In this document: positions 10,020-44,085 of the stretch, piece by piece | Numbering within the stretch: position 1 is the stretch's first letter | How the letters are laid out: each line of letters starts with the position of its first letter | DNA from: Betaproteobacteria bacterium | Lineage (GTDB): Bacteria; Pseudomonadota; Gammaproteobacteria; Burkholderiales; SG8-41 | Assembly: GCA_028292225.1 (NCBI GenBank) | Contig: JAQGMV010000113.1 | Location: 1 to 45,270 of the forward strand | Reading direction: 5' to 3' | Length of the DNA: 45,270 bases | The notes under the pieces: generated by a model | Database searches by the model: none | The model's input: only the letters and a program-made list of their open reading frames with translations | Told to the model about the DNA's origin: nothing | Program-made: the position numbers and the translations under genes

Positions 10020-10507
10020 GAGCGCGGCTGCGCGCGGCGTGGGCGCTTCGAACATCGCGCGAACGCAAGGTCATCGCGGTCGCCGCCGCGCTGCTGATCG
10101 CCGTGCTGTTTCTCTGGCTCGTGCATACGGCGAACCGCGCGCGATCGACCCTTCGCGCAAGCGTCACGACGCTCGAGGCCGATGCGATGCGCCTCGATCG
10201 GGACGCGGCGGAGATCGAGCGACTTCGGGCGACACCTGCGGCGTCGGCCTCCCACAGCGACTTACGCAACCTCGTCGGGGCGCAAAGCAACGCGACCGGA
10301 TTATCGGCGGCCATCGTTCGCATGGACGCGGCCGGCCCTGACCAGGTGTCCGTCGTGTTCGGCGCGGTGGCGTTCGCCGACTGGCTCACCTTGCTGCAAA
10401 GACTGCAAGCCCAGCATGTGCGCCTGGAAAGCGCACGCATGGAAGCCCTGGCGACGCCAGGCATGGTCAGCGTGACAGCGACTTTTACGCGCGCCGCAGT
10501 GCCGTGA
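10016..10507 (+). CDS. gspM: Type II secretion inner-membrane platform protein GspM
   Basis: A 163-residue protein with a basic cytoplasmic tail, one membrane helix at about residues 18-37 (VIAVAAALLIAVLFLWLVHT), a coiled-coil stretch and a small periplasmic domain, matching GspM. Dimerises with GspL in known systems. The TTG at 10016 overlaps the last codon of gspL (TTGA), which makes it the best start; no ATG is available near it. The 3' end overlaps the GTG of gspN (GTGA, 10504-10507). Confidence 0.85.
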   Translation: MRARLRAAWALRTSRERKVIAVAAALLIAVLFLWLVHTANRARSTLRASVTTLEADAMRLDRDAAEIERLRATPAASASHSDLRNLVGAQSNATGLSAAIVRMDAAGPDQVSVVFGAVAFADWLTLLQRLQAQHVRLESARMEALATPGMVSVTATFTRAAVP

Positions 10508-11238
10508 AGCACCTCGCATTGGGTCTTGCCGCATACCTGCTTGCGCTCCTCTTCACCCCGCCCGCGACGCTGGTGGACGCCGCCGTGCGGCACGCGAGCG
10601 ATGGCGTGCTGCGCGTGGCCGAAGCGCGAGGGTCGATCTGGTCCGGGGCCGGCCAACTGGAGCTCGTCGATTCGCTGCGGCATGCCGGCGTCGCGAAAGC
10701 GGTGAGCTGGCATCTGCTGCCGACATCGTTATGGCGCGGCCACGTGGTCTACGAAGTTCAGCTCGCCGATGCCTCGGCTCCGGCACACGTGACGATCTCG
10801 CCGTCGCAGCTCGAGCTTGCCGACGCGGTCCTCGAGATACCCGCCGGTGCGATCGTTATCGCCGCGCCCAAGCTCGCGCCTGCGCAGCTCACCGGCGACC
10901 TCTCGATCAGCACTGCACACATGATCGTGGACCGAAGCGGTGTGCGGGGCAGCGCCACGTTACGCTGGCGCAATGCCGGCTCCGGGCTGAGCCCGGTGGC
11001 GCCTCTCGGTGAGTACGAAATGCACGTGGACAGTGACGAGGCAGGCATGCGCGCGACTTTGGCCACCGTCAAAGGCCCACTCGAACTGAAAGGTCACGGG
11101 TCCTGGCGACGGGAGACCCCGTCCGCGTTTTCAGCGACCGCGCGAATGCCTCCCGAGTATGTCGAGCAGATCGCTCCGCTTTTACGCCTGATCGCGAGCG
11201 AATCCGCGGACGGCACTTTTCAGCTCGTGCTCAGGTGA
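10504..11238 (+). CDS. gspN: Type II secretion system protein GspN
   Basis: A 244-residue protein of the GspN family, an accessory component found in only some type II systems. It begins with a hydrophobic N-terminal segment (about residues 4-24) and continues as a predicted beta-rich periplasmic domain. Typical features are EARGSIWSGAGQLEL near residue 40 and the closing RLIASESADGTFQLVLR. The start is GTG at 10504, overlapping the gspM stop. About 150 bases separate it from gspC, the largest gap within the operon. Confidence 0.85.
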   Translation: MKHLALGLAAYLLALLFTPPATLVDAAVRHASDGVLRVAEARGSIWSGAGQLELVDSLRHAGVAKAVSWHLLPTSLWRGHVVYEVQLADASAPAHVTISPSQLELADAVLEIPAGAIVIAAPKLAPAQLTGDLSISTAHMIVDRSGVRGSATLRWRNAGSGLSPVAPLGEYEMHVDSDEAGMRATLATVKGPLELKGHGSWRRETPSAFSATARMPPEYVEQIAPLLRLIASESADGTFQLVLR

Positions 11239-11385
11239 GAATTCATGGCTGCGGCCGATGTTCCACACGCGCATCTCGAACGCCTGCACGGCGTCCACAT
11301 GGGTTAATCTCATGAACGACCCCTTGTGCTGCCCAACCACGCGCCGCAAGGTTCCCGCTGCGAGCCGCGGGGGCACATCGCACGC

Positions 11386-11979
11386 ATGACAAAGAAAGCC
11401 GACAGCTCAGTTCCGGCATCGACCGACCCGCTCGCGGCGCTCGCGTCTGCAGCGACTTTCGTCGCGATCGTCGCCCTCGGGTGCGTGCTCGCCTACTGGA
11501 CATGGGTCTGGGTTGCGCCGCGTCCCGGGCCTCGCGTGCCGACAATCGAGATTCCGCGAAGCGGCGCGGGGGCTTCGGCGCTTTTCGGCGCCGTCCAGCG
11601 CGACAGCCGGATTGCGGCGCCCACCGGTGCGGCCATGAAGCTGCTGGGAGTGGCGGCAGGCTCGCGGCAGATGCGCGGCTACGCCGTTTTGCAGGTCGGG
11701 GGCAAAGACATCGTTGCGATACGCGAAGGCGCGGACATCGTCGCCGGCATCCGGCTGGCCGAAGTGCACCGCGATCGCATCGTACTCGAGCGCAACGGCC
11801 TGCGTGAAACACTCGAGTGGCCGCAGTCGAGTGTTGCTGCCGCGCCTGCGCCGGCGAAGCAGAGCCTTGCTGGCGCTCCCGCTTCGTCGACAGCGAGCCC
11901 GCCTGGCGGTCCTGCTCAATCGCCTGCCGTTCCCGGGCCGCCGCCGTCAAAAGCCGATCGCGATCGGCTTTCCGATTAA
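11386..11979 (+). CDS. gspC: Type II secretion protein GspC (short form, no PDZ domain)
   Basis: A 197-residue inner-membrane protein that connects the platform to the secretin. It has a short cytoplasmic tail, a membrane helix at about residues 18-43 and a homology region at about 60-145 (ALFGAVQRDS to NGLRETLEW) that in known systems touches GspD. The last 45 residues are Ala/Pro/Ser-rich, and the PDZ or coiled-coil domain of classical GspC (about 270-300 residues) is missing. The start is ATG at 11386; an in-frame upstream start would add 20 residues but lacks a ribosome-binding site. A perfect 22-base palindrome overlaps the last codons. Confidence 0.85.
   Translation: MTKKADSSVPASTDPLAALASAATFVAIVALGCVLAYWTWVWVAPRPGPRVPTIEIPRSGAGASALFGAVQRDSRIAAPTGAAMKLLGVAAGSRQMRGYAVLQVGGKDIVAIREGADIVAGIRLAEVHRDRIVLERNGLRETLEWPQSSVAAAPAPAKQSLAGAPASSTASPPGGPAQSPAVPGPPPSKADRDRLSD
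11950..11971. repeat. Perfect 22-base palindrome between gspC and gspD
   Basis: The sequence reads AAAGCCGATCG followed by its exact reverse complement, CGATCGGCTTT, inside the final codons of gspC and 35 bases before the gspD start. No T-run follows, so it is not a standard terminator. It could form an mRNA hairpin that adjusts gspD relative to upstream genes, or be a DNA-binding site. Confidence 0.55.
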
Positions 11980-12005
11980 TCGATGAATCCCATTGTCTGG
12001 ATGTG

Positions 12006-14240
12006 ATGACCCGTCTCCGTTTATTCCTGAAGCATCACTGGCGCCGCCCCGCCTTCATGTGGATTGTCGCGGCCTTCGCGACCGGGCAGGCGCACGCGGC
12101 GGAACCGATCACGCTCGAGCGGGTGTCTCCTGCACGCATCCCACCTGCCGCTCCGGCGCCTGGCGGCACACCCGCCGGCACCGCCTCGAGAGTGGCCGGT
12201 CCGAACGATACGGTCACGCTCAACTTCAACAACGCCGACATCGAAGGCGTGGTGAAGCTCGTGAGCGAGATTACCGGCAGGAACTTCGTGCTCGATCCTC
12301 GAGTGCGCGGAACGATCAACATCGTCTCGGCGACGCCGCTCTCCAGAGCGCTCGTGTACGAGGTCTTTCTCTCGGCTTTGCGACTCCAGGGCTTCGCAGT
12401 CGTGGAAGAGCGCGGCGTCACCAAGATCCTTCCCGAGGCCGATGCGAAAACGCAGCAGGGCGCTGCATTCGGTCCGCAGGACAGGTCCCGCAGCACGGGA
12501 GACAGGATTCAGACGCAGGTGTTCGTGCTGAAGTACGAGTCGGCTTCCCAGCTCGCGCCGGTCCTGCGCCCGCTCATCGCGCCGGGCAACGCCATCGGCG
12601 CATATCAGAGCGGCAACGCGCTGGTGATCACCGATTACGCCAGCAACCTGCGCCGCATCGAGAAGATCATCGACTCGATCGATCAGCCGACTCGAACGGA
12701 TGGCGCAGCCATTCCGATTCGTTACGCCTCCGCGCTCGACGTCGCGCAGACGGTCAACCGTCTCTTCGCTGAATCTGCGCAAGCGCAGGGCGGGGCGGCT
12801 GATACGACGCAGCGCGTGATCGTCGTCGCGGATGCGCGCTCGAATACGCTGTTCGCACGATCGGACAACCCGTCTCAGCTCAACAAGCTCCGCAACCTCG
12901 TGGCCTTGCTCGATACGCCGACGAGCGCCGCGGGCAACATGCACGTGATCTTTCTGAAGAACGCCGAGGCGGTGAAGATCGCAGAGACCTTGCGCGCCGT
13001 TTATTCAGGCGAAACCTCAGGTGGACAAAGGTCTGCTCCCGCCGGATTCACGTCCGGCATGGCGGCCGGACCGCCGCTCGGCGCAACCGGCGCTTCTGCG
13101 CCGCCCGCGGGGGCGCCGGGTGCAACGACGACGTCATCGCCGCCGCCATTGGGCGCATACGCGTCACCTTTCGCCGGCGGGCCCGGGTCGGTCTCGTCCT
13201 CGACGGGCGGCATCGTGCAGGCCGATGCGGCCACGAATTCGATCATCATCACTGCGCCCGATGCGATCTACAACAATCTGCGCGCGGTCGTCGAGAAGCT
13301 CGATATACGGCGCGCGCAGGTCTACGTCGAAGCGCTCATTGCGGAGGTCACGGCGAATACCGCGGCTGAATTCGGAATTCAGTGGCAGAACCTCAGCGGC
13401 GCGGGCACCGGCAATACCGGCACCCGTGTTTTCGGCGGCACCAACCTCGGCGGTCCCGGCCAGAACATCCTGGGCATCGCGCAGAATCCCACCACGGCGG
13501 GCCGCGGCCTGAACATCGGCGTAATCAATGGTCGCGTCTCGATACCGGGTGTGGGCGAGATACTCAACCTGGGCGTCCTCGTTCGCGCGCTCGAGACCGA
13601 CAACAACGCGAACATCCTTTCAACGCCCACGCTGCTGACACTCGACAACGAGGAAGCGCGAATCATCGTCGGCCAGAACGTGCCGTTCATCACCGGGCAG
13701 TACGCGCTTTCCGGCGCCGCGACGACGCCGACCCCGTTTCAGACGATCGAGCGGCGGGATGTCGGCCTCACATTGAGGATCAGGCCTCACATCTCCGAAG
13801 GCGGAACCGTCAGGATGCAGATATTCCAGGAAGTGTCGAGCATCGAGGACCGCACCAATCCGGCGGGCGTCATCACGAACAAGCGCGCGGTGGAATCGAC
13901 GGTGCTGGTGGACGACGGGCAGATCATCGTCATCGGCGGACTCATCCAGGACGACGTCAGAAACGCCACGGACAAGGTCCCTCTGCTCGGAGATATCCCG
14001 TTCGTGGGCAGCCTGTTCCGCTACAGGACACGCTCGCGCAACAAGACCAACCTGATGATATTTTTGAAACCGACGCTGTTGCGGGATGCGCGAAGCGCGG
14101 ACGGCGTGACGGGCCCCGGTTACGACTACATCCTGCGCGAGCAGCTCCAGGGCACGCCCGCGCCCAGCGTCATCCTTCCGGACATGGAATGGCCGAGCCT
14201 GAAAATGAGGCTCTCGCCGCCCCCGGCCGAAACGCGATGA
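12006..14240 (+). CDS. gspD: Type II secretion outer-membrane secretin GspD
   Basis: A 744-residue secretin that forms the outer-membrane channel. A signal peptide of about 31 residues ends at AHA/AEP. The N0 domain starts near residue 60 (VTLNFNNADIEGVVKLVSEITGRNF), N1-N3 follow, and N3 contains a Gly/Pro/Ser/Thr-rich insert at about 338-400. The secretin core includes RDVGLTLRIRPHISEGG, VLVDDGQIIVIGGLI and VPLLGDIPFVGSLFRYRTR. The start is ATG at 12006; a longer frame upstream covers gspC in another phase and has no signal peptide. The stop overlaps the gspE start. No pilotin gene is seen nearby. Confidence 0.95.
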   Translation: MTRLRLFLKHHWRRPAFMWIVAAFATGQAHAAEPITLERVSPARIPPAAPAPGGTPAGTASRVAGPNDTVTLNFNNADIEGVVKLVSEITGRNFVLDPRVRGTINIVSATPLSRALVYEVFLSALRLQGFAVVEERGVTKILPEADAKTQQGAAFGPQDRSRSTGDRIQTQVFVLKYESASQLAPVLRPLIAPGNAIGAYQSGNALVITDYASNLRRIEKIIDSIDQPTRTDGAAIPIRYASALDVAQTVNRLFAESAQAQGGAADTTQRVIVVADARSNTLFARSDNPSQLNKLRNLVALLDTPTSAAGNMHVIFLKNAEAVKIAETLRAVYSGETSGGQRSAPAGFTSGMAAGPPLGATGASAPPAGAPGATTTSSPPPLGAYASPFAGGPGSVSSSTGGIVQADAATNSIIITAPDAIYNNLRAVVEKLDIRRAQVYVEALIAEVTANTAAEFGIQWQNLSGAGTGNTGTRVFGGTNLGGPGQNILGIAQNPTTAGRGLNIGVINGRVSIPGVGEILNLGVLVRALETDNNANILSTPTLLTLDNEEARIIVGQNVPFITGQYALSGAATTPTPFQTIERRDVGLTLRIRPHISEGGTVRMQIFQEVSSIEDRTNPAGVITNKRAVESTVLVDDGQIIVIGGLIQDDVRNATDKVPLLGDIPFVGSLFRYRTRSRNKTNLMIFLKPTLLRDARSADGVTGPGYDYILREQLQGTPAPSVILPDMEWPSLKMRLSPPPAETR

Positions 14241-15718
14241 TCGCCGCGAAGCTCACGAATGTCGTTCCCTACGCATTCGCCAAGACCCACGGCATCGCCG
14301 TCACCGCATGCGACAAGGGTTATGCCGAAGTCGTCGTTCGCGAGGACGCCGCCCCGGGAGCGCTCGCCGAAGTTCGACGGGTGCTCGGCATGCCGCTACA
14401 CGCAGGGCGCATCGGCATCGCGGAGTTCGACGAAGTCCTCTCGGCCCTGTACAACGGCGCAGGGAACGGCGCTGTTGCGCTCGCGGGCGACCTCGCGCAG
14501 GACATCGATCTGTCGCGACTGCTGCAGGAGATCCCGCGAGTCGAGGATCTGCTCGACAGCCAGGACGATGCGCCGGTCATCCGCCTCATCAATGCGTTGT
14601 TTACCCAGGCATTGAGGGACGGCGCTTCCGATATCCACATCGAGCCCTTCGAGACGCGCTCGGTCGTGAGGCTGCGCATCGACGGCACGCTACGCGATCT
14701 GCTCGAGCCCGCGCGCGCGCTGCACGCGGCGATCGTCTCCCGCGTGAAGATCATGGCTCAGCTCGACATCGCGGAAAAGCGTCTTCCCCAGGACGGACGC
14801 ATCACACTGCGGGTCGCCGGCAAACCGGTCGACGTGCGAGTGTCCACGATACCGACCGGGCACGGCGAGCGCGTGGTGCTGCGCCTGCTGGACAAGCAGG
14901 CGGGACGGCTGGACCTCTCGCGTCTCGGCATGGACGAGGCGACCGCAGCGCAGATGGACCATCTGATACGTCAGCCGCACGGCATCGTGCTCGTGACCGG
15001 CCCGACCGGCTCCGGCAAGACGACGACGCTGTACGCCGCGCTGTCGCGGCTGGACGCGACCTCGCTCAACATCATGACCGTCGAGGATCCGATCGAATAC
15101 GACCTCGACGGCGTGAACCAGACCCAGATCAATACCCGCATCGAGATGACGTTCGCGCGCGCGCTGCGCACGATCCTGCGCCAGGATCCGGACGTGATCA
15201 TGATCGGCGAGATCCGCGATCTCGAAACCGCGCAGATCGCGGTGCAGGCGAGTCTCACCGGCCACGTCGTGTTCGCCACCCTGCACACGAACGACGCCGT
15301 CAGCGCAGTGACCCGGCTGGTGGACATGGGCGTCGAGCCTTTCCTGCTTGCGTCCAGTCTCATCGGCGTGGGTGCGCAGCGCCTGGTGCGGCGCCTGTGT
15401 CCCGACTGCCGCAAACCCTTCCCTGCGGATGCCGCCCAGTTGCGGACGCTGGGACTGCTTCCGCGCGCCGGCACCTTCTACACCGCGCAGGGTTGTCCGT
15501 CGTGCAATCACTCGGGTTATCGCGGACGCACCGGAATCTACGAGCTCGTGACCGTCGACGACGATCTGCGCCGCCTGATCCACGACCGCGCATCCGAGCA
15601 GACCCTGCGCGAGCACGTCGTTCGCGGCGGCATGCGTTCGCTGCGCGAGGATGGCATGCGCTGGGCGTCCGAGGGCGTGACCAGCCTCGAAGAAGTCCTT
15701 CGCGTCACTCGCGAGTAG
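14237..15718 (+). CDS. gspE: Type II secretion ATPase GspE
   Basis: A 493-residue hexameric cytoplasmic ATPase that powers pseudopilus assembly. The N-terminal GspL-binding region is followed by the NTPase core: Walker A GPTGSGKTT starts at residue 255, then the Asp box (VEDPIEY), Walker B (DPDVIMIGEIRDLETA) and His box (TGHVVFATLHTNDA). The zinc-binding tetracysteine motif is intact (C388, C391, C420, C423), which separates GspE from most PilT-type retraction ATPases. The ATG at 14237 overlaps the gspD stop (ATGA). Confidence 0.96.
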   Translation: MIAAKLTNVVPYAFAKTHGIAVTACDKGYAEVVVREDAAPGALAEVRRVLGMPLHAGRIGIAEFDEVLSALYNGAGNGAVALAGDLAQDIDLSRLLQEIPRVEDLLDSQDDAPVIRLINALFTQALRDGASDIHIEPFETRSVVRLRIDGTLRDLLEPARALHAAIVSRVKIMAQLDIAEKRLPQDGRITLRVAGKPVDVRVSTIPTGHGERVVLRLLDKQAGRLDLSRLGMDEATAAQMDHLIRQPHGIVLVTGPTGSGKTTTLYAALSRLDATSLNIMTVEDPIEYDLDGVNQTQINTRIEMTFARALRTILRQDPDVIMIGEIRDLETAQIAVQASLTGHVVFATLHTNDAVSAVTRLVDMGVEPFLLASSLIGVGAQRLVRRLCPDCRKPFPADAAQLRTLGLLPRAGTFYTAQGCPSCNHSGYRGRTGIYELVTVDDDLRRLIHDRASEQTLREHVVRGGMRSLREDGMRWASEGVTSLEEVLRVTRE

Positions 15719-32159: not shown

Positions 32160-33086
32160 TCATTTCGATGCGAGTCCGGCTTGTTCGACCGTCCGACGAT
32201 CGATTTTCGGCGCCACCATCTGGATGAAGTCGAGGGCGTAGCCACGCAGGTAGTGATTCCTCCGGATGGCGAGGTTGGCGCGATGCGGCTCGAACAGGTG
32301 GTCGACGTCCAGGGCGCGCAGCCCGGAGTCGCGCACCGGGTCGAACGCGAGGCGCGGAAGAACCGCGATGCCGAGGCCGGCTTCCACGAAAGCCTTGACC
32401 ACGTCGATATTCGGTCCGGAGAGCACGATGTTGGGCTCGAGGCCTGCGCTCAGGAACCGTTCGCGCATCTTCGCCTGGCCGCGCGACCCTGCGTGGAGCG
32501 TGACGAGCGGGTACGCCGAGATCGTCTTCAGGCTCAGCGAGCTGCTCGTTGCAAGCGGATGCTTGCGCGGAACGAACAGCGCGCGAGGAAGCTGGGCGTA
32601 TTCGAGCATGAGCAATTCCGGGAATGCAGCCGCGGGCCCCGCGGTGAGCGCGATATCCGCTTCGCCGGATACGACGAGCTTGCAGACCTGGTCGGAGCTG
32701 CCGTGCAGCAGCTCGAGCTGCACCTGCGGATATCTGACGACGAAGCGCTGCAGGACGCCGGGCAGCACGTATCGCCCGAGCGTGAAGGTCGCCGCGACGT
32801 TGAGCCGTCCCGTATGGCCTTCCAGGAATTCGTGAGCCGCCGCCTTGATGCTGTCGGTTTGCCGAAGGATCACCGCTGCGATATCCACGATGCGCCGCCC
32901 GGGTTCGGTGAGGTCGCTGATGCGGTTACCGCTGCGCACGAAGAGGTCGACCCCGAGCTCCTGCTCGAGCAGCCGCATCTGTTTGCTGATGCCGGGCTGG
33001 GACGTGTGCAGCGCAGCCGCGGCATTCGAAAAACTCAGATCGCGTTTTGCGATCTCGCAAAGATATCTGAGCTGGTGCAGCTTCAT
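32160..33086 (-). CDS. CysB-like LysR-family regulator
   Basis: A 308-residue LysR regulator. The N-terminus (MKLHQLRYLCEIAKRDLSFS to TSQPGISKQMRLLEQELGV) is characteristic of the CysB/Cbl branch, whose members respond to sulfur metabolites such as acetylserine, thiosulfate or sulfate. The helix-turn-helix is at about residues 19-38 and the effector domain at about 90-295. It diverges from the selenoprotein operon at 33217 and precedes the hydroxylase operon on the same strand (81 bases to its start), so it may regulate either. The target and effector are inferred from position and family only. Confidence 0.9.
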   Translation of the reverse strand: MKLHQLRYLCEIAKRDLSFSNAAAALHTSQPGISKQMRLLEQELGVDLFVRSGNRISDLTEPGRRIVDIAAVILRQTDSIKAAAHEFLEGHTGRLNVAATFTLGRYVLPGVLQRFVVRYPQVQLELLHGSSDQVCKLVVSGEADIALTAGPAAAFPELLMLEYAQLPRALFVPRKHPLATSSSLSLKTISAYPLVTLHAGSRGQAKMRERFLSAGLEPNIVLSGPNIDVVKAFVEAGLGIAVLPRLAFDPVRDSGLRALDVDHLFEPHRANLAIRRNHYLRGYALDFIQMVAPKIDRRTVEQAGLASK

Positions 33087-33172: not shown

Positions 33173-33216
33173 CGTGTCGCTAGCATCGGGCGTCATTCGA
33201 ACTGTCGGAGGAAGAT

Positions 33217-33831
33217 ATGGCCACTCATGCAACCGAAACCATCGGCGGGATTTCGGTCTACGCGCCGATCGGCGCGGTCGACACGCAATCGAAGGTGCTC
33301 GCGCCGCGCCTGGCGAGCGTTCGCGGCGCGCGTATCGGCATCCTGGACAACTGCAAGGAATTCGCGGACCTCGTGCTGCGCGGTGTGGCCGACGTGCTGC
33401 AGCGCGAGCACGGCGTGACCGAAATCAGAGTCTGGCAAAAGAGCTATCTCGGCATTCCTTCGCCTTATGCGCAGGAGATGGCGTCGGAGTGCGACGCGGT
33501 CATCAACGGCGTCGGTCACTGAGGCTCTTCGACACCCTGGACCGCGCGTGACGCGGCCGCACTCGAAGATCTCGGAATCCCGACGGTCACCGTCATCAGC
33601 ACGGCTTTCGCGCCACTGGCGCAGGTCGTCGGCGAAGGCATCGGGCACGTGAGCCTGCCGATCGTCGTCGTTCCCCATCCGCTGGGCGACCGCGACGAGG
33701 AGGTGATCAGGCAGCGCGGGGTCGCCATCGCGCAGGAATGCGTGCGCATCCTCACGACTCCCATGGACGCGCTCGCGCTCGAATTCGAAGGCAAGCAACA
33801 TCCGCTGCCGCGCGGCGTGATGCCGCGATGA
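33217..33831 (+). CDS. UGSC-family selenoprotein, with in-frame TGA read as selenocysteine
   Basis: Read through the TGA at 33520-33522 this is a 204-residue protein with Sec at position 102. Before the TGA there are 101 residues in good coding frame (ARIGILDNCKEFADLVLRGV near 38-57; ECDAVINGVGH at 91-101). After it the same frame continues as GSSTPWTARDAAALEDLGIP to the stop at 33829-33831. The HUGSST context matches the family named for its U-G-S-C motif, known from bacterial selenoprotein surveys; here the Cys of UGSC is Ser. A strong GGAGGAAG site precedes the ATG. The final stop overlaps the next gene's ATG, as expected if ribosomes routinely pass the TGA. A hairpin starts three bases after the TGA. 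Family function is unknown; a redox or nucleophilic Sec is likely. Less likely alternatives are a nonsense mutation or a sequencing error. Confidence 0.8.
33526..33569 (+). promoter_or_regulatory. Candidate bacterial SECIS element
   Basis: Three bases after the TGA, TCTTCGA (33526-33532) pairs perfectly with TCGAAGA (33563-33569). Inside, GG-A-CCGCG (33539-33546) pairs with CGCGGCC (33552-33558), with one bulged A and a five-base apical loop CGUGA. The loop begins 24 bases after the TGA and has G among its first two bases, which fits the published outline of bacterial SECIS hairpins. It lies within the coding sequence, as bacterial elements do. The loop does not copy the E. coli fdhF loop. 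Confidence 0.65.
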
Positions 33832-34922
33832 TCATGCCCACGCGCATCCCCGATATGAATACGACTGAAGCCACTCCGCACGTCGTCGGCGCCGACGAAA
33901 GCGTCGATGCTGTGAACGACTACTTCTACGAGCGAGGATGGACCGACGGCCTTCCCATCATCCCGCCGAACGAAGAGCGGGTCGAAGCGATGCTCGCGGG
34001 CATGCCGTGGCGCGGCGCCGACGAGCTCATCAATATCGTGCCGCCGCGCATGGGCCGCGCGACCTTGCGACAGATCGCGGTCAACGCCGTCATGGCCGGG
34101 TGCAAACCGGAATACCTGCCGGTGGTCGTGGCTGCGCTCCAGGCGGTATCGGAGCCTGCCTACGGCCTCTCGCATCGCCAGACCACCACTCACGCAGGCG
34201 CACCGCTCATCATCGTCAACGGTCCGATCGTCGAGCGCCTGCGTATCAACTGCGGGCGGGGACTGTTCGGTCCGGGGTGGCGCGCCAACGCGACGATAGG
34301 CCGCGCACTGCGCCTGGTGCTCGTGAATGTGGGCGGCGCGGGCCCCGGCGTGGACGCGTCGCAGACGGGCCATCCGGGTAAATACACGTACTGCATCGCG
34401 GAGTACGAAGCCGCGAATCCCTGGGAGCCGCTGCATGTCGAGCGCGGGTTCGCGCGCGAGCAGAGCGTAGTCACCCTGGTGAATACCGAAGCCCCTCACA
34501 GCATGACCGAGAACATTCAGACGGTCCCCGAGGAGATCGTGCGCACTTTTGCGTCGTGCATGGCCACGCTCGGCGTGAACAATCTGTACTCCCAGGGCAA
34601 CCCGGTGCTCGTGCTCGGCATCGAGCACGCGCAGCACATCGCGTCGGCCGGATGGACCAAGCTCGATCTGCAGAAGGCGCTGTTCGAGCAGGCGCGTCAG
34701 CCGTGGGGACTCGCCAAAAACCGCGGCAAGTCGAAAGGACCCCGCTTTCCCGAATTCGTCGACCGCAACGATGACACGTCCATGGTGCCCATCGTGCGCG
34801 AACCCGGAGATCTGGTGCTCATCGTCGCCGGCGGCGCAGGCGGGAAATCGATGTTTCTGCCGACGGCCGGAGGCCAGAGCCTCAGTGTCTCCAGGGTGAT
34901 CGAAACGGGAGTAACAGTTTGA
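33828..34922 (+). CDS. Conserved-looking protein of unknown function coupled to the selenoprotein
   Basis: A 364-residue protein with no signal peptide and no membrane segment, so probably cytoplasmic. I do not recognise a named catalytic fold. Distinct stretches are YERGWTDGLPIIPPNEERVEAML (about residues 36-58), ATLRQIAVNAVMAGCKPEYLPVV, THAGAPLIIVNGPI, NCGRGLFGPGWRANATIGRA and a C-terminal ILIVAGGAGGKS-like Gly-rich turn. Several Cys residues occur in these stretches. The ATG at 33828 overlaps the selenoprotein stop (ATGA); an alternative ATG at 33855 is possible. Its 3' end overlaps the next receptor gene. The tight coupling suggests it forms a complex or pathway with the selenoprotein. 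Confidence 0.8.
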   Translation: MIMPTRIPDMNTTEATPHVVGADESVDAVNDYFYERGWTDGLPIIPPNEERVEAMLAGMPWRGADELINIVPPRMGRATLRQIAVNAVMAGCKPEYLPVVVAALQAVSEPAYGLSHRQTTTHAGAPLIIVNGPIVERLRINCGRGLFGPGWRANATIGRALRLVLVNVGGAGPGVDASQTGHPGKYTYCIAEYEAANPWEPLHVERGFAREQSVVTLVNTEAPHSMTENIQTVPEEIVRTFASCMATLGVNNLYSQGNPVLVLGIEHAQHIASAGWTKLDLQKALFEQARQPWGLAKNRGKSKGPRFPEFVDRNDDTSMVPIVREPGDLVLIVAGGAGGKSMFLPTAGGQSLSVSRVIETGVTV

Positions 34923-35899
34923 TGAACGTCGGTGACAAAACGGCGCGCGCAGTATTCGGGCTCACCCTCCTCGGTTTTGCCGGACCGGCCTTGTCTCAGT
35001 CGTATCCGAACAAGCCCGTTCGGATGATCGTTGCATTCGCGCCCGGCGGCGGCACCGACATCGTCGGGCGCATCGTCGGCCAGAAGCTGGCCGCGAAGTG
35101 GCCGCAGCCGGTCGTCATCGACAATCGCCCGGGTGCGGGCTCGACCGTGGGCACGGCCATGACGGCGAAAGCGCCGCCCGACGGCTACACGATCTCGATG
35201 ACCTCGATGTCGCATGCGATCAACGCCACGCTGTACCGCACGCTGCCTTACGATTCGATCCGGGATTTCGAGCCCATCATCCTGGTCGCGCGTGCGCCCA
35301 ACGTGCTGGTCGTGCACCCCTCGGTCGCGGCGCACACGGTGAAGGACCTGGTCGCGCTGGCGAAAGCACGTCCGGGCCAGCTCAACTTCTCCTCTTCCGG
35401 CACCGGCGGCGTGTCGCATCTTTCCGCCGAATGGCTCAACGCGGTAGCCCGGATGGACATGCTGCACGTACCCTATAAAGGGGCGGGACCGGCCATGAGC
35501 GCGCTGCTCGGCGGCGAGGTGCAGGTGATGATGGCGACCACGCCGGTGTCGCTGCCCCAGATCAAGGCGAACCGCGTGCGCGGCATCGCGATCTCGAGCC
35601 TGCTGCGCTCGCCGCTCGCGCCGGGGATGCCGACCATCGCGGAGTCCGGCTTTCCCGGATTCGAGACCGACACCTGGTACGGCATGCTCGCACCGGCCGG
35701 TACGCCTGCGGCCATCGTGCGGCGTCTCAATGCCGACACCTCCCGCGCGCTCGAGTTGCCCGACCTGAAAGCGGCTCTCGAGCAGCAGGGGGCCCAACCC
35801 GCCGGCGGGAGCCCGGACGAGTTTCGGCGATTCATCCAGACCGAAACCGAGAAGTGGGCGAAAGCCATCCGCGTCGCCAAAGTGCCTTCCGCCAACTGA
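34922..35899 (+). CDS. Bug/TctC-family periplasmic solute receptor in the selenoprotein operon
   Basis: A 325-residue receptor. The signal peptide is about residues 1-25, ending ALSQ/SYP. Motifs are YPNKPVRMIVAFAPGGGTD, VIDNRPGAGSTVG, KAPPDGYT, LHVPYKGAGPAMSALL and MLAPAGTPAAIV. The ATG at 34922 shares its A with the preceding stop, so it is translationally coupled to the unknown protein. Bug receptors bind small carboxylates, including amides and amino acids such as nicotinamide, glutamate and aspartate; this one presumably takes up the substrate of the downstream amidase-type enzyme. Confidence 0.93.
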   Translation: MNVGDKTARAVFGLTLLGFAGPALSQSYPNKPVRMIVAFAPGGGTDIVGRIVGQKLAAKWPQPVVIDNRPGAGSTVGTAMTAKAPPDGYTISMTSMSHAINATLYRTLPYDSIRDFEPIILVARAPNVLVVHPSVAAHTVKDLVALAKARPGQLNFSSSGTGGVSHLSAEWLNAVARMDMLHVPYKGAGPAMSALLGGEVQVMMATTPVSLPQIKANRVRGIAISSLLRSPLAPGMPTIAESGFPGFETDTWYGMLAPAGTPAAIVRRLNADTSRALELPDLKAALEQQGAQPAGGSPDEFRRFIQTETEKWAKAIRVAKVPSAN

Positions 35900-36976: not shown

Positions 36977-36998
36977 CTCGCGCATCACGCTGCGCGAG
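36977..36998. terminator. Hairpin at the convergent asparaginase/cysA junction
   Basis: CTCGCGCA and TGCGCGAG form an eight-base-pair stem with a six-base loop that includes the cysA stop codon. It serves both directions by symmetry. No T-tract follows on either strand, so it is more likely an mRNA 3'-end stabiliser or a Rho-assisted site than a classical terminator. Confidence 0.4.
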
Positions 36999-38157
36999 CG
37001 GGCACTACAGGCTGTGCATCGGGATGCGGCGCCGGCGCCGGCGTGACGCGCGGCACTTCGCGGTCGTCGATCGTTCCCCGCGCGGGGCCTGTGGAGTTGC
37101 GTTCATCGATGAAGACTCGCGCGCGTCGCGGCTTGAGATGGACGAGACCGCCGGGTACGAGGTCGAGTTGCGCGAACTTCGGCCGCGGCAGCTCGACTTC
37201 GACCGGCTCGCCGCCATCCCGGCGGGTGAGCTCGAGGCGCACGACCGGGCCGAGTTTCACCGTGTGATTCAAAGTCGCGGCGAACGACGCGTTGCTCGCC
37301 TCGGCGACGATGTCCAGATCGTGCGGCCGCACGTACACGACAGCGGGGGCGTGGGCAACGTCGGCGTGTTCATGAGCATCGACGTGCGTGCCGCTGATGT
37401 TCGCGACTCCCCGCGACACTACACCCTGGAAGCGGTTGGTGTGGCCGAGGAACTGGTGGACGAAAGCGGTCGCGGGATGGTCGTAGACTTCATCCGGCGC
37501 GCCGACCTGCTCGATGCGGCCTTTGTTGAACACCGCGATGCGGTCGGCGACTTCGAGGGCTTCTTCCTGGTCGTGAGTCACGAAAACGCTCGTCAGATGG
37601 ATCTCGTCGTGCAGCCTGCGCAGCCAGCGGCGCAATTCCTTGCGCACGCGCGCGTCGAGCGCGCCGAAAGGCTCGTCGAGCAGCAGCACTTTCGGCTCGA
37701 TCGCAAGGGCGCGGGCGAGCGCGACGCGCTGGCGCTGGCCGCCTGAGAGCTGGTGCGGATAGCGCCCGGCGAGGCGGTCGAGCTGGACCATTTCGAGCAG
37801 CCGCATGACCCGGCTGCGAATGTCGGCGTCCGAGGGGCGCAGCTCGCGGCGCCGCACGCGCAGCCCGAAGGCGACGTTCTCGAACAGGGTCATGTGACGG
37901 AACAGCGCGTAGTGCTGGAACACGAAACCGACCGCGCGCTGTTGCACCGACCTGCCGGCGACGTCTTCGCCGCTGAGCACGATCGTGCCGGAATCCGGGA
38001 GCTCGAGGCCTGCGATCATGCGCAGCAGGGTCGTCTTGCCCGAGCCCGAGGGGCCGAGCAGGGCGACGAGCTCGCCCGAGCCGACTTCGAGGCTCACCTT
38101 GTCCACCGCCGCGAATGGGCCGAAGTGTTTGGAGACGTTGCTCACCTGGATGCTCAT
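36985..38157 (-). CDS. cysA: Sulfate/thiosulfate ABC transporter ATP-binding protein CysA
   Basis: A 390-residue ATPase that energises sulfate import. Walker A is GPSGSGKTT, the signature is [16 protein letters not shown], Walker B is [12 protein letters not shown] and the switch His is in [12 protein letters not shown]-terminal regulatory TOBE-like region follows from about residue 240 ([10 protein letters not shown]). The start at 38157 gives the family N-terminus [13 protein letters not shown] and overlaps the cysW stop (ATGA); an open frame continues upstream but only shadows cysW. Last gene of the sulfate operon. Confidence 0.95.
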
Positions 38158-39029
38158 GACCGCTCTTCCTTGAGGTAACGCGTCTCGATGACGGTCTTGA
38201 CGACCACGGTCACGAGCGCGAGTAGAGCCAGCAGCGACGCGCAGGCGAAAGCCCCCGCGAAGTTGTATTCGTTGTAGAGGATCTCGATGTGCAGCGGCAG
38301 GGTGTTGGTCATGCCGCTGATATGTCCGGACACGACCGAGACCGCGCCGAACTCGCCCATTGCGCGCGCGTTGGACAGGATGACGCCGTAGAGCAGCCCC
38401 CACTTCACGTTGGGGAGGGTCACGCGCCAGAGGATGTGCCACGCGCCTGCGCCGAGCGACGCAGCGGCTTCTTCTTCCTCGCGGCCCTGCGCCTGCATGA
38501 GCGGGATCAGCTCGCGCGCGACGAACGGGAAGGTGACGAAGACGGTCGCGAGCACGATGCCGGGAACCGCGAAGAGCACCTTGAAGTCGTGGTCCGCGAG
38601 GCTCGCGCCGAACCAGCCCTGTAGCCCGAAGATCAGCGCGTAGATGAGACCCGAGATCACCGGGGACACCGCGAAAGGCAGGTCGATCAGCGTGATGAGC
38701 AGCGCCTTGCCGCGGAAATCGAACTTGGCGATCGCCCACGCCGCAGCGACGCCGAACACGAGGTTGAGCGGAACCGAGATGGCGGCGGCGGTCAGGGTGA
38801 GGCTGATCGCCGACAGCGCGTCGGGCTCCTGGATCGCCGCGAAGTAAAAAGCGAGCCCTCTGCTCAAGCCTTCGTAGAACACTGCGACCAGCGGCAACAG
38901 CAGGAAGAGGGCGAGGTAGCCGAGCGCGACGGCGCCGAGCAGCAGCGGCACCAGCGGCACCAGCGGCAGCGCGCGCGATTTCGAAGCCGCCCAGGCTTGC
39001 GCGGCGGGGGCTGTGAGCACGGCGGACAC
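38154..39029 (-). CDS. cysW: Sulfate ABC transporter permease CysW
   Basis: A 291-residue inner-membrane permease with about six membrane segments, the first near residues 27-50. The ATPase-coupling loop ([20 protein letters not shown], about 195-214) and [18 protein letters not shown] are typical of CysW. The start is GTG at 39029, two bases after the cysT stop. It pairs with CysT to form the channel. Confidence 0.94.
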
Positions 39030-39031
39030 GG

Positions 39032-39874
39032 TCAGCTCCTCTCCTCACCGCGGCGGTGGCGCATCCACCATTGCAGCGCGTTCACCGCGAAGAGCAGCGC
39101 GAACGACCCGAGAAGCATGACCACGGCGACTGCGGTGGCCCCCGCGTAGTCGAACTGCTCGAGCTTGGTGACGATGATGAGCGGGGTGATCTCGGACACC
39201 ATCGGCATGTTGCCCGCGATGAAGATCACCGACCCGTATTCGCCGAGCCCGCGCGCGAAAGCGAGCGTGAAGCCGGTGAGCAGCGCCGGCAGCACCGTGG
39301 GGAAAATCACGCGGCTGAAAACCTGCCAGCTCGTGGCGCCGAGCGACCTGGCCGCTTCCTCGAACTCGTGCTCCATGTCCTCGAGCACCGGCTGGATCGT
39401 GCGCACGATGAAGGGCAGCCCGACGAAGATGAGCGCCATCAGCACCCCGAGCGGCGTATACGCGACTTTGATGCCGAGGCTTTCCAGCGGCCCGCCGAGC
39501 CAGCCGCTGGTCGCGTAGATCGCGCTGAGTGCGATCCCCGCGACCGCGGTCGGCAGCGCGAACGGCAGGTCGACGACTGCGTCGACGAGACGGCGGCCCG
39601 GAAAGCGGTAGCGCACCAGCACCCACGCGACGATCAAACCGAACACTGCGTTGATAGCCGCGGCGAGGAGCGAAGCGCCGAACGAGAGGCGCAGCGAAGC
39701 GAGCACCCGGGGTGCGGTCACCGTGTGCCAGAACGATTCCCACGTCAGGCTGAACGTCTTGATGAACGCAGCGGAGAGCGGGATCAGGACGATGAGCGTG
39801 AGATACAGCAGCGTATAGCCGAGCGCGAGGCCGAAGCCCGGGAGCACGCTGTGAGGACGTTTGAGGACGCTCAT
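39032..39874 (-). CDS. cysT: Sulfate ABC transporter permease CysT (CysU)
   Basis: A 280-residue permease with about six membrane segments beginning near residue 14. The coupling loop [20 protein letters not shown] and the [19 protein letters not shown] segment identify CysT. The start is ATG at 39874, overlapping the binding-protein stop (ATGA, 39871-39874). Confidence 0.94.
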
Positions 39875-40881
39875 TTCGCCCCCGGCTGGTAGATCTGGTC
39901 GAAGATCGCGCCGTCTGCGAAATGGGTTCTGTGCGCGTTGCGCCATCCGCCGAAAGCCTCGTCCACCGTGAAGAGGTCGAGCCGGGGAAACTGGCCTGCA
40001 TATTCTTTCGCGACTTTAGGCGAGCGCGGACGGTAGAACTGGCTCGCCGCTATCGCCTGGCCTTCGTCGCTGTAGAGATACCGGAGATAGGCTTCGGCGA
40101 CCTTGCGCGTGCCGCGCTTGTCGACGACCTTGTCGACCACCGCGACCGGAGGCTCCGCGAGGATACTGATCGAAGGCGCGACGATTTCGAATTTGCCCGC
40201 ACCGAACTCGCGCAGGGCGTACAGCGCCTCGTTCTCCCAGGCGATCAGCACGTCGCCGACGCCGCGCTCGACGAAAGTCGTGGTCGCGCCGCGCGCGCCG
40301 GAGTCGAGCACGGCGACGTTCCTGTAGAGGCGCCCGACGAAATCCTTCGCCTTGGCGGGATCGCCGAGCTTGCGCTCTGCATAACCCCACGCCGCCAGAT
40401 AGTTCCAGCGCGCGCCGCCCGAAGTCTTCGGGTTGGGCGTCACCACGCTCACGCCCGGCTTTGCGAGGTCGTTCCAGTCCCTGATCCGCTTCGGATTGCC
40501 TTTACGAACGAGAAGCACGATGGTCGAGGTGTACGGCGACGCGTTGTCCGGCAGGCGCATTTGCCAGCCGGCTGCGATCAGCCCGGACTTGCGGGCGATC
40601 TCATCGATGTCGTAGGCCAGCGCGAGCGTGACCACGTCGCCGCCGAGACCGTCGATCATCGAGCGCGCCTGCTTGCCCGATCCGCCGTGCGACTGTCCGA
40701 ACCTGACCTTCTCGCCCGTCGTCGCCGCCCAGTGTTTCGCGAATGCTGCGTTGAACGTGCGGTAAAGGCCGCGCGTCGGATCGTACGAGACGTTCAGCAG
40801 CGATACGTCCGCTGCGCTCGCCGCCCCCGACACGATGAGCGCGTATGCGAAGAGCCATACGGCTCTCATCGGGGGCGGCAT
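39871..40881 (-). CDS. sbp: Periplasmic sulfate-binding protein
   Basis: A 336-residue receptor of the Sbp/CysP family. A signal peptide of about 23 residues ends at ASA/ADV. Family motifs include [37 protein letters not shown] with sulfate-contacting Ser/Gly residues, [16 protein letters not shown] and the closing GAIFDQIY. Whether it prefers sulfate or thiosulfate cannot be told; the accompanying activation genes favour sulfate. It follows cysN by 24 bases in one operon. Confidence 0.94.
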
Positions 40882-40905
40882 TGTGGGTGTCCCTGCGCGT
40901 TCAGC

Positions 40906-42171
40906 TCACGGACTGCCGGCGGGGCTCGGCACCACCATCCCCGCGCCGACCGTGTGGTTGGTCACTTCGTCGATGATGATGAAGCCGCCGGTCGCACGCA
41001 CGTGCGCGTAGTCGTCCACGATCAGCGGCCGCTGGAGCTTGAGGCGCGCCGCGCCGATGTCGTTCAGCGCGAGCTGTGTCGCCGAAGTGTCGCGCTCGAG
41101 GGTCGTGATGTCGAGGCGGTAGTCGAGGCGCTCGACCACGGCTTTCACCGTGTTCGTCGTGTGCTTGATCAGATACCTGCCGCCGCGCTGAAGCGGCGCC
41201 GCATCCATCCAGCACAGCACGACGTCGAGCGTGCGCACCGGTTGTGCAGGCGTTTCCGGGTGCGTGATGAGGTCGCCTCGCGAGATGTCGATCTCGTCGG
41301 CGAGCACCAGCGTCACCGATTGCGGCGCCTGCGCGCACTCGCGCGAGCCTTCGAAGGTCACGATGTCGCGCACGGTCGATGACAGTCCGCACGGCTGCAC
41401 CAGGACGCGGTCGCCCTTTTTGATCCCGCCCGATTCGATCCGGCCCATGTAGCCGCGGTGGAACGTTCCGGGCATGCCCGGCATAGCCACGTACTGGACC
41501 GGGAAGCGCAGCGGCGCGCCGGTGGACTTCTTGACTTCGACTTGCTCGAGCAACTCGAGCAGCGCGGGTCCGCGGTACCACGGAAGGTTCTTGCCGCGCG
41601 CGACGGTCATGTCGCCTTCGAGCGCGCTGACCGGCACGAAATGGACGTTCGCAAAATCGAGCTTGGCGATGACCGCTGAAAACTCGGCCCTGATCGCTTC
41701 GAAGCGCTCCTGCGAGTAGCCGACCGCGTCCATCTTGTTGACGGCGACGACCAGGTGCGGAATGCCGAGCAGGCTCGCGACCGCGGCGTGGCGGCGCGAC
41801 TGCGGCTGCACGCCTTTCTTCGCGTCGATGAGGACGATCGTGAGATCGGCAGTCGACGCGCCGGTCACCATGTTGCGGGTGTACTGCTCGTGGCCGGGCG
41901 TGTCCGCAATGATGAACTTGCGCTTCTTGGTCGCGAAGTAACGATATGCGACGTCGATCGTGATGCCCTGCTCGCGCTCCGCGGCGAGGCCGTCGGTGAG
42001 GAGCGCGAGGTCGAGCCCCTTGCCGCCGCGGCGCTCGGTCGTGCGTGCGAGATTGGCCACCTGGTCTTCGAGGACCGAGCGGCTGTCGAACAGCAGGCGC
42101 CCGATGAGCGTGCTCTTGCCGTCGTCTACGCCGCCGGCGGTCGAGAAACGTAACAATGTTTGTGCGGACAT
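40906..42171 (-). CDS. cysN: Sulfate adenylyltransferase subunit 1, GTPase CysN
   Basis: A 421-residue GTPase of the EF-Tu type that drives APS formation by CysD. GTP-binding motifs are GGVDDGKSTLIGRLL, ADTPGHEQYTRNM and VAVNKMD. Domains II and III follow from about residue 230. At this length it lacks a fused CysC (APS kinase), which fits a pathway that reduces APS directly. The start at 42171 (MSAQTLLRF) overlaps the cysD stop by one base; the longer open frame upstream is within cysD. Confidence 0.95.
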   Translation of the reverse strand: MSAQTLLRFSTAGGVDDGKSTLIGRLLFDSRSVLEDQVANLARTTERRGGKGLDLALLTDGLAAEREQGITIDVAYRYFATKKRKFIIADTPGHEQYTRNMVTGASTADLTIVLIDAKKGVQPQSRRHAAVASLLGIPHLVVAVNKMDAVGYSQERFEAIRAEFSAVIAKLDFANVHFVPVSALEGDMTVARGKNLPWYRGPALLELLEQVEVKKSTGAPLRFPVQYVAMPGMPGTFHRGYMGRIESGGIKKGDRVLVQPCGLSSTVRDIVTFEGSRECAQAPQSVTLVLADEIDISRGDLITHPETPAQPVRTLDVVLCWMDAAPLQRGGRYLIKHTTNTVKAVVERLDYRLDITTLERDTSATQLALNDIGAARLKLQRPLIVDDYAHVRATGGFIIIDEVTNHTVGAGMVVPSPAGSP

Positions 42172-43169
42172 CAGAAATATCCTTCCTTCTTGCGCAGCTC
42201 CATCGAGGCGTCGGAGGTCTGGTCGTCGAGGCGTGTCGCGCCGCGTTCGGTATGCGTGGCGCAAATCGTTTCCTCGATGATCGCCTCGTACGTGTCAGCA
42301 TCGGACAGCACCGGGCAGGTGCAGGTCACGTCGCCGAGGGTGCGAAAGCGCACGCGCTTTTCCATCACTTCTTCGCCGGCTTTCGGCTGCACCAGGTCGG
42401 AGACCGGGAGGTAAAGACCGTTACGGACGATGACCGGACGCGTATGCGCGAAGTAGAGCGAAGGCAGCGGAAGCTTCTCGCGGCCGATGTACTGCCAGAT
42501 GTCGAGCTCGGTCCAGTTGCTGATCGGGAACACGCGCATGTTCTCGCCCTTGTGGACGCGGGTGTTATAGAGGCTCCACAGCTCGGGACGCTGGTTCTTC
42601 GGGTCCCACTGGCCGAATTCGTCACGGAACGAAAAGATCCTTTCCTTGGCTCGCGACTTCTCTTCGTCGCGGCGCGCGCCGCCGAAGCAGGCGTCGAAGC
42701 CGAACTCGCCGATGGCGTCGAGCAGGGTCACGCTCTGGTGACGGTTGCGGTCTTCGTCGGGACGCTTCAGGCGCACGCGGCCGCTCGCAATCGAATCTTC
42801 GACCGAGCGCACGATCAGGCGCTCGCCGAGCTCGGCGGCGCGCAGGTCGCGGAACTCGATGAGCTCGGGGAAGTTGTGGCCGGTGTCGATGTTCAGCAGC
42901 GGGAAGGGGAAGCGGCCGGGACGGAAAGCCTTTTCCGCAAGGCGCAGCATCACGAGCGAATCCTTGCCGCCCGAGAAGAGCAGGACCGGATTCGCGCACT
43001 CGGCAGCGACTTCCCGCATGATGTGGATGGCTTCGGTCTCGAGCCATTCGAGGTGGTCGTGCTCGGCGGCGCGAACAGGCTCGACCGCGCGCAGCTGCAC
43101 GCGCGGCTGCGCGGACGACGCCGGTGCGTCGAGCTCCTGCCGACGCAATACGTTTGAAGCCTGGGTCAT
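42171..43169 (-). CDS. cysD: Sulfate adenylyltransferase subunit 2 CysD
   Basis: A 332-residue ATP sulfurylase subunit. The PP-loop motif LLFSGGKDSLVMLRLAEKAF binds ATP, and NIDTGHNFPELIEFRD, GGARRDEEKSRAKERIFSFRD and the C-terminal TCTCPVLSDADTYE region are diagnostic. The N-terminus has about 30 extra residues before the core. The start at 43169 has an AAGGAG site and overlaps the cysH stop (ATGA). Confidence 0.96.
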   Translation of the reverse strand: MTQASNVLRRQELDAPASSAQPRVQLRAVEPVRAAEHDHLEWLETEAIHIMREVAAECANPVLLFSGGKDSLVMLRLAEKAFRPGRFPFPLLNIDTGHNFPELIEFRDLRAAELGERLIVRSVEDSIASGRVRLKRPDEDRNRHQSVTLLDAIGEFGFDACFGGARRDEEKSRAKERIFSFRDEFGQWDPKNQRPELWSLYNTRVHKGENMRVFPISNWTELDIWQYIGREKLPLPSLYFAHTRPVIVRNGLYLPVSDLVQPKAGEEVMEKRVRFRTLGDVTCTCPVLSDADTYEAIIEETICATHTERGATRLDDQTSDASMELRKKEGYF

Positions 43170-43861
43170 GCTTTCACTCCTTGAGGATGTAGCCCGCATT
43201 CCTTGCCTGCACTCGATTCCCACCACCAGCGGCCGGCCCGGATGTCTTCGCCCGGTTGAACCGCGCGCGTGCAGGGCGCGCAGCCGATGCTCGGGTACCC
43301 GCGGTCGTGCAGCGCGTTGTAGGGCACGCCGCGCGAGCGGATGTAATGCCATACGTCTTCTTCGGTCCATTGCGCGAGCGGGCTGAACTTGTACAAACCC
43401 TGTGTCGTATCGAAAGCGACTTCGTCGAGCTGCTGGCGGGTGACCGCCTGGTCGCGGCGCAATCCGGTGACCCAGGCCCGCTTGCCTGCGAGCGCGCGCT
43501 TCAGCGGCTCGAGCTTGCGTACTTCGCAGCAGTCTTTGCGCTGCGCGGTGCTGTCGTAGAAACCGTTGATGCCGTTGATGCGGACAAAGCTTTCGACCGC
43601 CTCGTGCCGGGGCGAATAAATCCGGACCTTGCAGCGATACGCCGTCGTCGCCTGCTGGATGAGGTCGTACGTCTCGGGCGGCAGACGGCCCGTATCCAGA
43701 GTGGCGATCTCGATCTCGCGGAACTCGCGCGCGATGAGGTCGAACAGCACCATGTCCTCGGCGCCGAAGCTGCTCGCGAAGACCGCGGGTGCGTGATTAC
43801 GGGCGGCGTCCAGCCGTTTCCTGACCTGGTCGACTTTCGCGTCGACCGCCGGGGCATGCAT
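43166..43861 (-). CDS. cysH: Phosphoadenylyl/adenylyl-sulfate reductase CysH, APS-reductase type
   Basis: A 231-residue reductase that makes sulfite from APS using thioredoxin. The [4Fe-4S] cysteines that mark the APS-specific type are all present: C111-C112 (KDCCEVRK) and C194/C197 (GCAPCTRA). The catalytic C222 is in the C-terminal KECGLHP motif. The start is ATG at 43861 with a GAGG site; an in-frame upstream GTG at 43924 would add unlikely residues. First gene of the cysHDN-sbp-cysTWA operon. Sulfite reductase (cysI) is not in the window. Confidence 0.95.
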   Translation of the reverse strand: MHAPAVDAKVDQVRKRLDAARNHAPAVFASSFGAEDMVLFDLIAREFREIEIATLDTGRLPPETYDLIQQATTAYRCKVRIYSPRHEAVESFVRINGINGFYDSTAQRKDCCEVRKLEPLKRALAGKRAWVTGLRRDQAVTRQQLDEVAFDTTQGLYKFSPLAQWTEEDVWHYIRSRGVPYNALHDRGYPSIGCAPCTRAVQPGEDIRAGRWWWESSAGKECGLHPQGVKA

Positions 43862-44085
43862 CGTGAACCTCGCTTGTGGGGCTGATCGGTGCGCATCCCG
43901 GCTCCGGGGAGCCTCGTGCGCCACCCGATACGGTTCGCAACGACGCAGCCCTGCCGAAGATTCGACAGGGCGGGGCCGATAGAGGAACAGTGCGGGCAGG
44001 GTGTTTTACGGCACGTGGCGGGGAAAACTTCAGTCGGGCTGCCCAAACCACGGCACTTGCCGGCGTGCGGTTGTCCCTGCCCGCG
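43862..44085. promoter_or_regulatory. Upstream region of the sulfate operon
   Basis: No gene is visible here. It must contain the promoter of cysH on the minus strand. A short dyad CCCTGCCGAAGATTCGACAGGG (arms CCCTG and CAGGG around 43960-43981) is present, but I see no convincing CysB site or -35/-10 pair. Confidence 0.3.

Follow-up and report, generated by a model that had tools for sequence, protein, structure and literature searches.

A predicted UGSC-family selenoprotein with a UGSS motif, a partner gene and multiple paralogues in a betaproteobacterial genome

The gene at 33217-33831 on the forward strand of contig JAQGMV010000113.1, a 45,270-nt stretch of DNA from a betaproteobacterium of the order Burkholderiales (assembly GCA_028292225.1) that is referred to here in its entirety as the window, almost certainly encodes a selenocysteine (Sec)-containing protein of the UGSC family. 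The frame opens at the ATG at 33217, ends at the TGA at 33829-33831 and contains a single in-frame TGA, codon 102 at 33520-33522, which is followed by 102 sense codons to 33828 and an ATGA overlap with the next gene, exactly at the coordinates given in an earlier annotation made from the letters alone (the original prediction). Under the standard code the open-reading frame (ORF) covers 33217-33522 and yields 101 residues, the truncated product that this annotation expected from a standard gene caller. The features of the gene are as follows.

33217..33831, forward strand: UGSC-family selenoprotein gene, 204 amino acids (aa), with Sec predicted at residue 102 in the motif VGH-U-GSSTPW; PF24696 match of 147.1 bits
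33520..33522, forward strand: UGA codon probably read as Sec; TGA in 23/23 relatives and Cys in 5/73 family rows
33207..33214, forward strand: Shine-Dalgarno-like GGAGGAAG upstream of the selenoprotein ATG, seen directly in the sequence
33542..33556, forward strand: core of a putative bacterial Sec insertion sequence (bSECIS) hairpin, CCGCG / loop CGUGA / CGCGG, the loop beginning 24 nt past the UGA

The Sec-containing read-through protein matched the Pfam family UGSC (PF24696) over residues 14-180, far above the cut-off of 25 bits (E 7.6e-43), and the match crosses the TGA. The NCBIfam model UGSC_fam (NF041046) gave 112.5 bits, under its cut-off of 125, and was still the best-scoring model for the protein (E 1.7e-32). 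The family named in the original prediction was thus upheld, while the motif had to be corrected, as it reads U-G-S-S and not U-G-S-C. In one contig scan, 23 relatives with 61-85% identity were found in other assemblies, all metagenome-assembled genomes (MAGs), and together with the window gene these make up the 24 sequences of what we call the window clade. The corresponding codon is likewise TGA in all 23, within the stretch V-G-H-U-G-S-S-[TA]-P-W, and across 73 aligned family rows the codon-102 position is TGA in 68 and Cys in 5, one of the Cys forms (C65a) being from the same genome as the window; this settles the check, proposed with the original prediction, of whether Sec or Cys fills the position. 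The window protein therefore has in common with the UGSC family its sequence similarity over the whole domain, including a site at which Sec and Cys exchange, and differs from it in the UGSS motif, in a Cys at position 175 and in scoring below the NCBIfam cut-off. Nonsynonymous divergence (dN) was lower than synonymous divergence (dS) on both sides of the TGA in 6/6 pairwise comparisons, with ratios of the nonsynonymous to the synonymous proportion (pN/pS) of 0.30-0.50 before it and 0.15-0.43 after it. In a phylogenetic tree, the 22 window-clade rows group together with support of 100/99, and the claim from the tree is limited to this grouping since the deep branching is unsure and long branches meet.

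The hairpin downstream of the UGA is a candidate bSECIS element. According to the rule given in a 2026 review (PMC13188914), such an element has a stem of 4-16 bp and a loop of 3-9 nt, with a G in the first two loop positions and the loop 16-37 nt from the UGA; the window hairpin, with its contiguous 5-bp stem and its 5-nt loop C-G-U-G-A, in which positions 2 and 3 are G-U, agrees with this rule at its distance of 24 nt. Synonymous sites were analyzed in the window gene and 22 relatives, the incomplete L046 being omitted, and where residues were the same, codon identity reached 0.98 at codons 109-114 (33541-33558) against about 0.40 expected, the top excess among 196 six-codon windows, compared with an overall mean of 0.55 against 0.44 expected from codon usage. 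The hairpin core is exact in 23/24 window-clade sequences, and the single C-to-T change in L029 leaves a G-U pair. Since the pairs scarcely vary, the window-clade hairpin gives little covariation information. Among paralogues, covariation was scored in 24 hand-picked fragments of 49 Sec-site fragments; omitted were 6 with another motif and 19 from the copy-rich genome G004 (described below) that mostly repeat one hairpin, into which the G004 fragment L100 does not fold. The 8-bp paralogue hairpin was 96.9% paired. It had 14 double-change cells, a number that 0/500 shuffles attained (shuffled mean 4.1), and its covariation score, 0.259, fell to at most 0.063 when the hairpin was slid. A double change occurred in three pairs, and 52/500 shuffles had at least as many. 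These figures are qualified by the relatedness of the fragments, which makes the shuffles a weaker control, and by the protein motif, which constrains the same bases too. A search of Rfam at gathering thresholds gave no match within the window.

The genome to which the window belongs (5.4 Mb in 544 contigs, 93.6% complete, 4.65% contaminated) contains tRNA-Sec (anticodon tca), selA, selB and selD, each above its cut-off, so that the absence of this machinery, which the original prediction had named as grounds for rejecting it, was not what we found. The selD gene (contig C108:405-1334, minus strand) has an in-frame TGA, and SelD is therefore probably a selenoprotein itself. In 40 genomes, comprising this one and 39 relatives, UGSC was present in 27 and selA in 29, with 25 having both, 2 UGSC only, 4 selA only and 9 neither (Fisher p 1.1e-4, uncorrected for phylogeny), the two genomes with UGSC and without selA being MAGs that are 91 and 92% complete.

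These results leave little room for two other accounts of codon 102. The first would make the TGA a true stop, ending a 101-residue protein with a pseudogene remnant behind it, or a sequencing error. In its favor, open frames past a TGA are common in this window, which is 66% GC and in which 34/1049 TGA trinucleotides are flanked on both sides by 100 or more open codons, and for that reason the open frame by itself was set aside as evidence. The Sec reading is raised above chance by the homology that crosses the TGA, by the TGA shared by all relatives and by the peak of synonymous conservation at the hairpin; with the same TGA recurring in other assemblies and with dN below dS beyond it, a true stop or an error is very improbable. 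The other account, that UGA has been reassigned to a different residue through a changed genetic code, found no support, an open frame under a different code not counting as evidence by itself, and it is opposed by the Sec machinery in the genome, the Cys at the codon-102 site in homologues, the bSECIS-like hairpin after the UGA and the use of TGA as terminator by the window gene and many paralogues; we consider it less probable still, to the point of being negligible. The reading of codon 102 as Sec is thus strongly supported at the level of sequence.

The ATGA overlap joins the selenoprotein gene to a second gene, which we call the partner.

33828..34922, forward strand: partner gene, 364 aa, in ATGA overlap with the selenoprotein gene and with its own ATG at 33828

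The partner matched no Pfam or NCBIfam family. A profile of the partner family hit 19 places in the window's genome, and 17/17 UGSC genes there are linked to this domain of about 350 aa, which is fused to them in 7 cases and adjacent in 10 (2 of the 10 cut by contig ends); of the two remaining matches, one is the copy in C451 described below and the other a fragment at the edge of contig C271. The partner also lies downstream in 21/23 window-clade relatives, the contigs of L025 and L046 ending too early. Since the partner is fused or adjacent in all 17 cases, the UGSC unit is probably a two-part enzyme, a proposal in which we place high confidence. A fusion of UGSC to a conserved domain, Unknown_1, has already been published (PMC2398784), and Unknown_1 is presumably the family of the window's downstream gene. 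A Cys at position 189 of the partner is invariant in 21/21 complete window-clade partners.

The number of UGSC genes in this genome is large. PF24696 gave 19 matches, which correspond to 17 genes because in two instances a pair of matches belongs to one gene that is interrupted by the end of a contig (exact overlaps of 127 nt); 16 of the genes have one TGA and the other is a Cys form (D-C-G-T-S). UGSC matches were present in 23/23 other genomes examined from the same bacterial family, at 2 to 58 per genome, in 3/16 genomes from other families of the same order, and in 3/298 other genomes of a phylum sample (at most 11 candidates scored per genome). The highest number, 58, comes from G004, a genome of 5.7 Mb with 98% completeness and 2% contamination; in this count, in which gene splits at contig ends are not merged, 51 matches contain one TGA and no other stop, 3 contain a further stop besides a TGA and 4 are free of stops. 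These copies are not strain duplicates, as 29 compared rows are at most 69.5% identical to one another. For comparison, the 2026 review names as the largest bacterial selenoprotein sets those of a Methylomirabilota MAG, with 63 genes, and of an Olavius symbiont, with 57 (PMC13188914).

The motif around the UGA has changed in the window clade. The residue three positions after Sec is Ser in 24/24 window-clade sequences, and in the 51 other aligned rows it is Cys in 47 (46 Sec rows and one Cys form) and Ser in 4 Cys forms with CGTS. With Ser in place of Cys at +3, the window gene represents a variant of the UGSC family. At position 175 the distribution is reversed, with Cys in 22/22 window-clade rows and 0/51 others; L042, outside that alignment, also has Cys175, and L046 ends before this position. 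The simplest reading, which we infer from these exchanges, is that Cys175 or a Cys of the partner replaces the +3 Cys in this clade.

An AlphaFold2 model of the window protein, built with 25 rows, was predicted with a mean local distance difference test (pLDDT) of 89.2 and a template modeling score (pTM) of 0.83, and has alternating strands and helices, with U102 placed between strand 94-100 and helix 105-118. Its structure matches in the PDB include lumazine synthases and CheY-like, B12-binding and periplasmic sugar-binding domains, with a best Foldseek E of 1e-4 and Z of 8.8-10.9 among the matches listed, a likeness that may reflect only a common arrangement. No thioredoxin entry appeared among the 50 structure matches listed, an absence that excludes nothing; on the predicted model, the thioredoxin (Trx)-like guess of 2008 is not borne out. 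A sequence search of the PDB gave no credible relative of the selenoprotein or of the partner (best E 0.053). For a model of a fusion protein (pLDDT 80.6), the structure matches in one search fall on the Sec domain, and a second fold search gave no match at E 0.001 or better.

Profile comparisons point to selenoprotein B (GrdB/GrdF/GrdH/PrdB) of the glycine, sarcosine, betaine and D-proline reductases. NCBIfam GrdB was matched by 24/27 UGSC rows at E of at most 0.1 (best 2.7e-7), while 4 rows matched the highest-ranking family that does not belong to the selenoprotein B group (best E 0.0059). The window's genome gave no match to PF07355 (GRDB). Related genomes have PrdB/GrdB-like proteins with an in-frame TGA, 8/10 loci fetched showing D-A-V-[LV]-L-[ST]-P-V-U; in two of these PrdB-like proteins that were scanned, PrdB was the best match, below its cut-off. 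Aligned to 7 of those 8 PrdB-like proteins by profile, UGSC places Sec on Sec, and with 73 UGSC rows the profile alignment scored 25.6; the highest of 60 column shuffles scored 23.6, and the reversed control 17.8. When UGSC was compared with the partner by hhalign as an intended control, a probability of 96% was obtained across 30 columns; this comparison was set aside as confounded, since the first 215 residues of fused rows extend into the partner. The likeness to selenoprotein B thus consists of weak, repeated profile matches over the Sec region with Sec aligned to Sec, and remote homology between the two Sec domains is likely but not proven. As separate observations on the PrdB-like proteins, eight loci (L105-L109 and L111-L113) have the Sec context L-[ST]-P-V-U-P-[NV]-C-T-C-A-V, and the two scanned proteins (407 and 412 aa) run about 180 aa past the PrdB match, with PF07355 matches that stop near the UGA.

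Selenoprotein B offers a model in which a Sec protein and a partner form substrate-specific pairs; in comparison with it the window protein is shorter, and no GrdE/PrdA-like partner is recognized. Several GrdB/GrdE-type pairs with different substrates, including one for fluoroacetate, are reported within one organism (PMC10838667). This FarB/FarE pair of Cloacibacillus likewise consists of a Sec protein and a partner, stands among several substrate-specific paralogues and lies in an operon with a transporter; it differs from the window pair in that its members are GrdB/GrdE homologues by annotation and that the set is smaller, with eight grdB genes in that strain (PMC10838667).

On this basis the following mechanism is proposed. 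SelB and tRNA-Sec would insert Sec at UGA 102 with the help of the bSECIS hairpin, and the selenoprotein would form a two-part enzyme together with the protein encoded by the overlapping gene downstream; in 7/17 UGSC genes both parts belong to a single polypeptide. The Sec domain would be a remote relative of the selenoprotein B Sec domain, and its selenolate, lying between a strand and a helix of an alternating beta/alpha domain, would act by nucleophilic attack on a substrate bound by the partner, breaking a polar bond, and would afterwards be restored through thiol reduction. In most family members the selenium would be resolved by the +3 Cys, and in the window clade by Cys175, a Cys of the partner or an external thiol. 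The paralogues would then be substrate-specific versions for various imported organic compounds, and the UGSC expansion would mirror substrate diversity. The coding signals for Sec, the linkage to the partner, the number of paralogues and the exchange in the motif are shown by the sequences, while the cleavage of a bond, the binding of substrate by the partner and the diversity of substrates are inferred. As a whole, this explanation, centered on a UGSC selenoprotein acting with its partner, is a good one and probably right. The chemistry taken separately, with a selenolate nucleophile and a substrate-binding partner as proposed for GrdB/GrdE and FarB/FarE, is held tentatively, at slightly under even chances. 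A little more doubtful again is the broadest form of the proposal, a large, so far unrecognized modular class of selenoenzymes with a GrdB-like Sec domain and a partner of about 350 aa, each genome of one bacterial family having tens of versions specific for different substrates and its members, like the window's genome, importing many organic compounds, with the resolving Cys of the window clade moved from +3 to 175.

A number of results weigh against this explanation. The window protein scored 19.5 bits with NCBIfam GrdB, far under the cut-off of 602.2, hhalign gave the GrdB link a probability of just 3-6% (E 0.007-0.013), and the partner has no match to a GrdE/PrdA-type family in profile searches at the thresholds used. 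The best conserved Cys of the partner varies across the family, being Ser in L024 and Gly in C401 and C285, and because it is not invariant, a pyruvoyl group formed from it cannot be general. One partner copy (C451:3687-4691, L114) has no neighboring UGSC domain; it could be an orphan or an enzyme in its own right. At the level of decoding, the minimum-energy fold contains the proposed hairpin in 20/24 sequences and differs from it in 4 (L027, L029, L041 and L043), and the fold of the window gene itself gains little over shuffled sequences (z -1.81). The adjacency of a TctC gene was rejected as functional evidence, since at least 150 TctC genes in the genome (150/435 candidates scored) give it little weight.

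The main competing account of the function, suggested by the 2008 survey, is an ordinary thiol/selenol oxidoreductase, Trx-like or peroxidase-like, that uses UxxC as its redox pair. The +3 Cys in 46/68 Sec rows speaks for it, and the 2026 review names UGSC in a sentence that ends with Trx-like-fold proteins, though the sentence leaves unclear whether UGSC is meant (PMC13188914). Against it stand the confident alternating beta/alpha model with its lumazine synthase, CheY-like, B12-binding and periplasmic sugar-binding matches, the Ser at +3 throughout the window clade, and the 17 copies, each with a partner domain, which would be unexpected for a general redox protein. We regard such an oxidoreductase as unlikely, and prefer the two-part enzyme with GrdB-like chemistry.

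The other genes around the selenoprotein and its partner are the following.

34919..35899, forward strand: TctC-type solute-binding protein, third gene of a putative operon; PF03401, 246.9 bits
35854..36942, forward strand: asparaginase-type ORF of the putative operon; TIGR00520, 310.7 bits, slightly below the cut-off of 314.3
32160..33086, reverse strand: divergent LysR/CysB-like regulator; profile matches

The real start of the asparaginase-type ORF is probably downstream of 35854, and an asparaginase cluster is present in 8/24 window-clade loci, one other member having been scanned with Pfam. In L031, L032, L035 and L044, MmgE/PrpD-like genes flank two TctC-cluster genes upstream of the UGSC pair and divergent from it (one member scanned), and luciferase-like monooxygenase and flavin reductase genes lie close by in some other relatives. 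Downstream, on the opposite strand, sulfate import and assimilation genes were identified by eye from their translations at 36985-43924; the divergent LysR gene is CysB-like. Type II secretion genes occupy 7552-15715, with GspK and GspE identified by NCBIfam.

The UGSC family is known since at least 2008, and UGSC-motif selenoproteins have also been described in actinobacteria whose tRNA-Sec reads UAG. The accessible text of the open-licence literature on UGSC selenoproteins reports their occurrence and the Unknown_1 fusion and assigns them no function. In the open-licence literature on betaproteobacterial selenoprotein expansion and on selenoproteins with tripartite tricarboxylate or Burkholderiales, no title among the matches listed concerns a UGSC expansion, a constant partner or UGSS/Cys175. 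What goes beyond the original prediction is the 17-gene expansion, the constant partner and the UGSS/Cys175 swap. That every genome examined in this bacterial family has UGSC, with a partner per copy (fully checked in one genome), suggests that this selenium chemistry is among the main traits of these bacteria and makes the question of UGSC function testable. Because the standard code ends such genes at the UGA and the NCBIfam cut-off misses the variant, selenoprotein counts for such bacteria may be too low. If the kinship to GrdB is true, reductive Sec chemistry would reach new organisms and new substrates.
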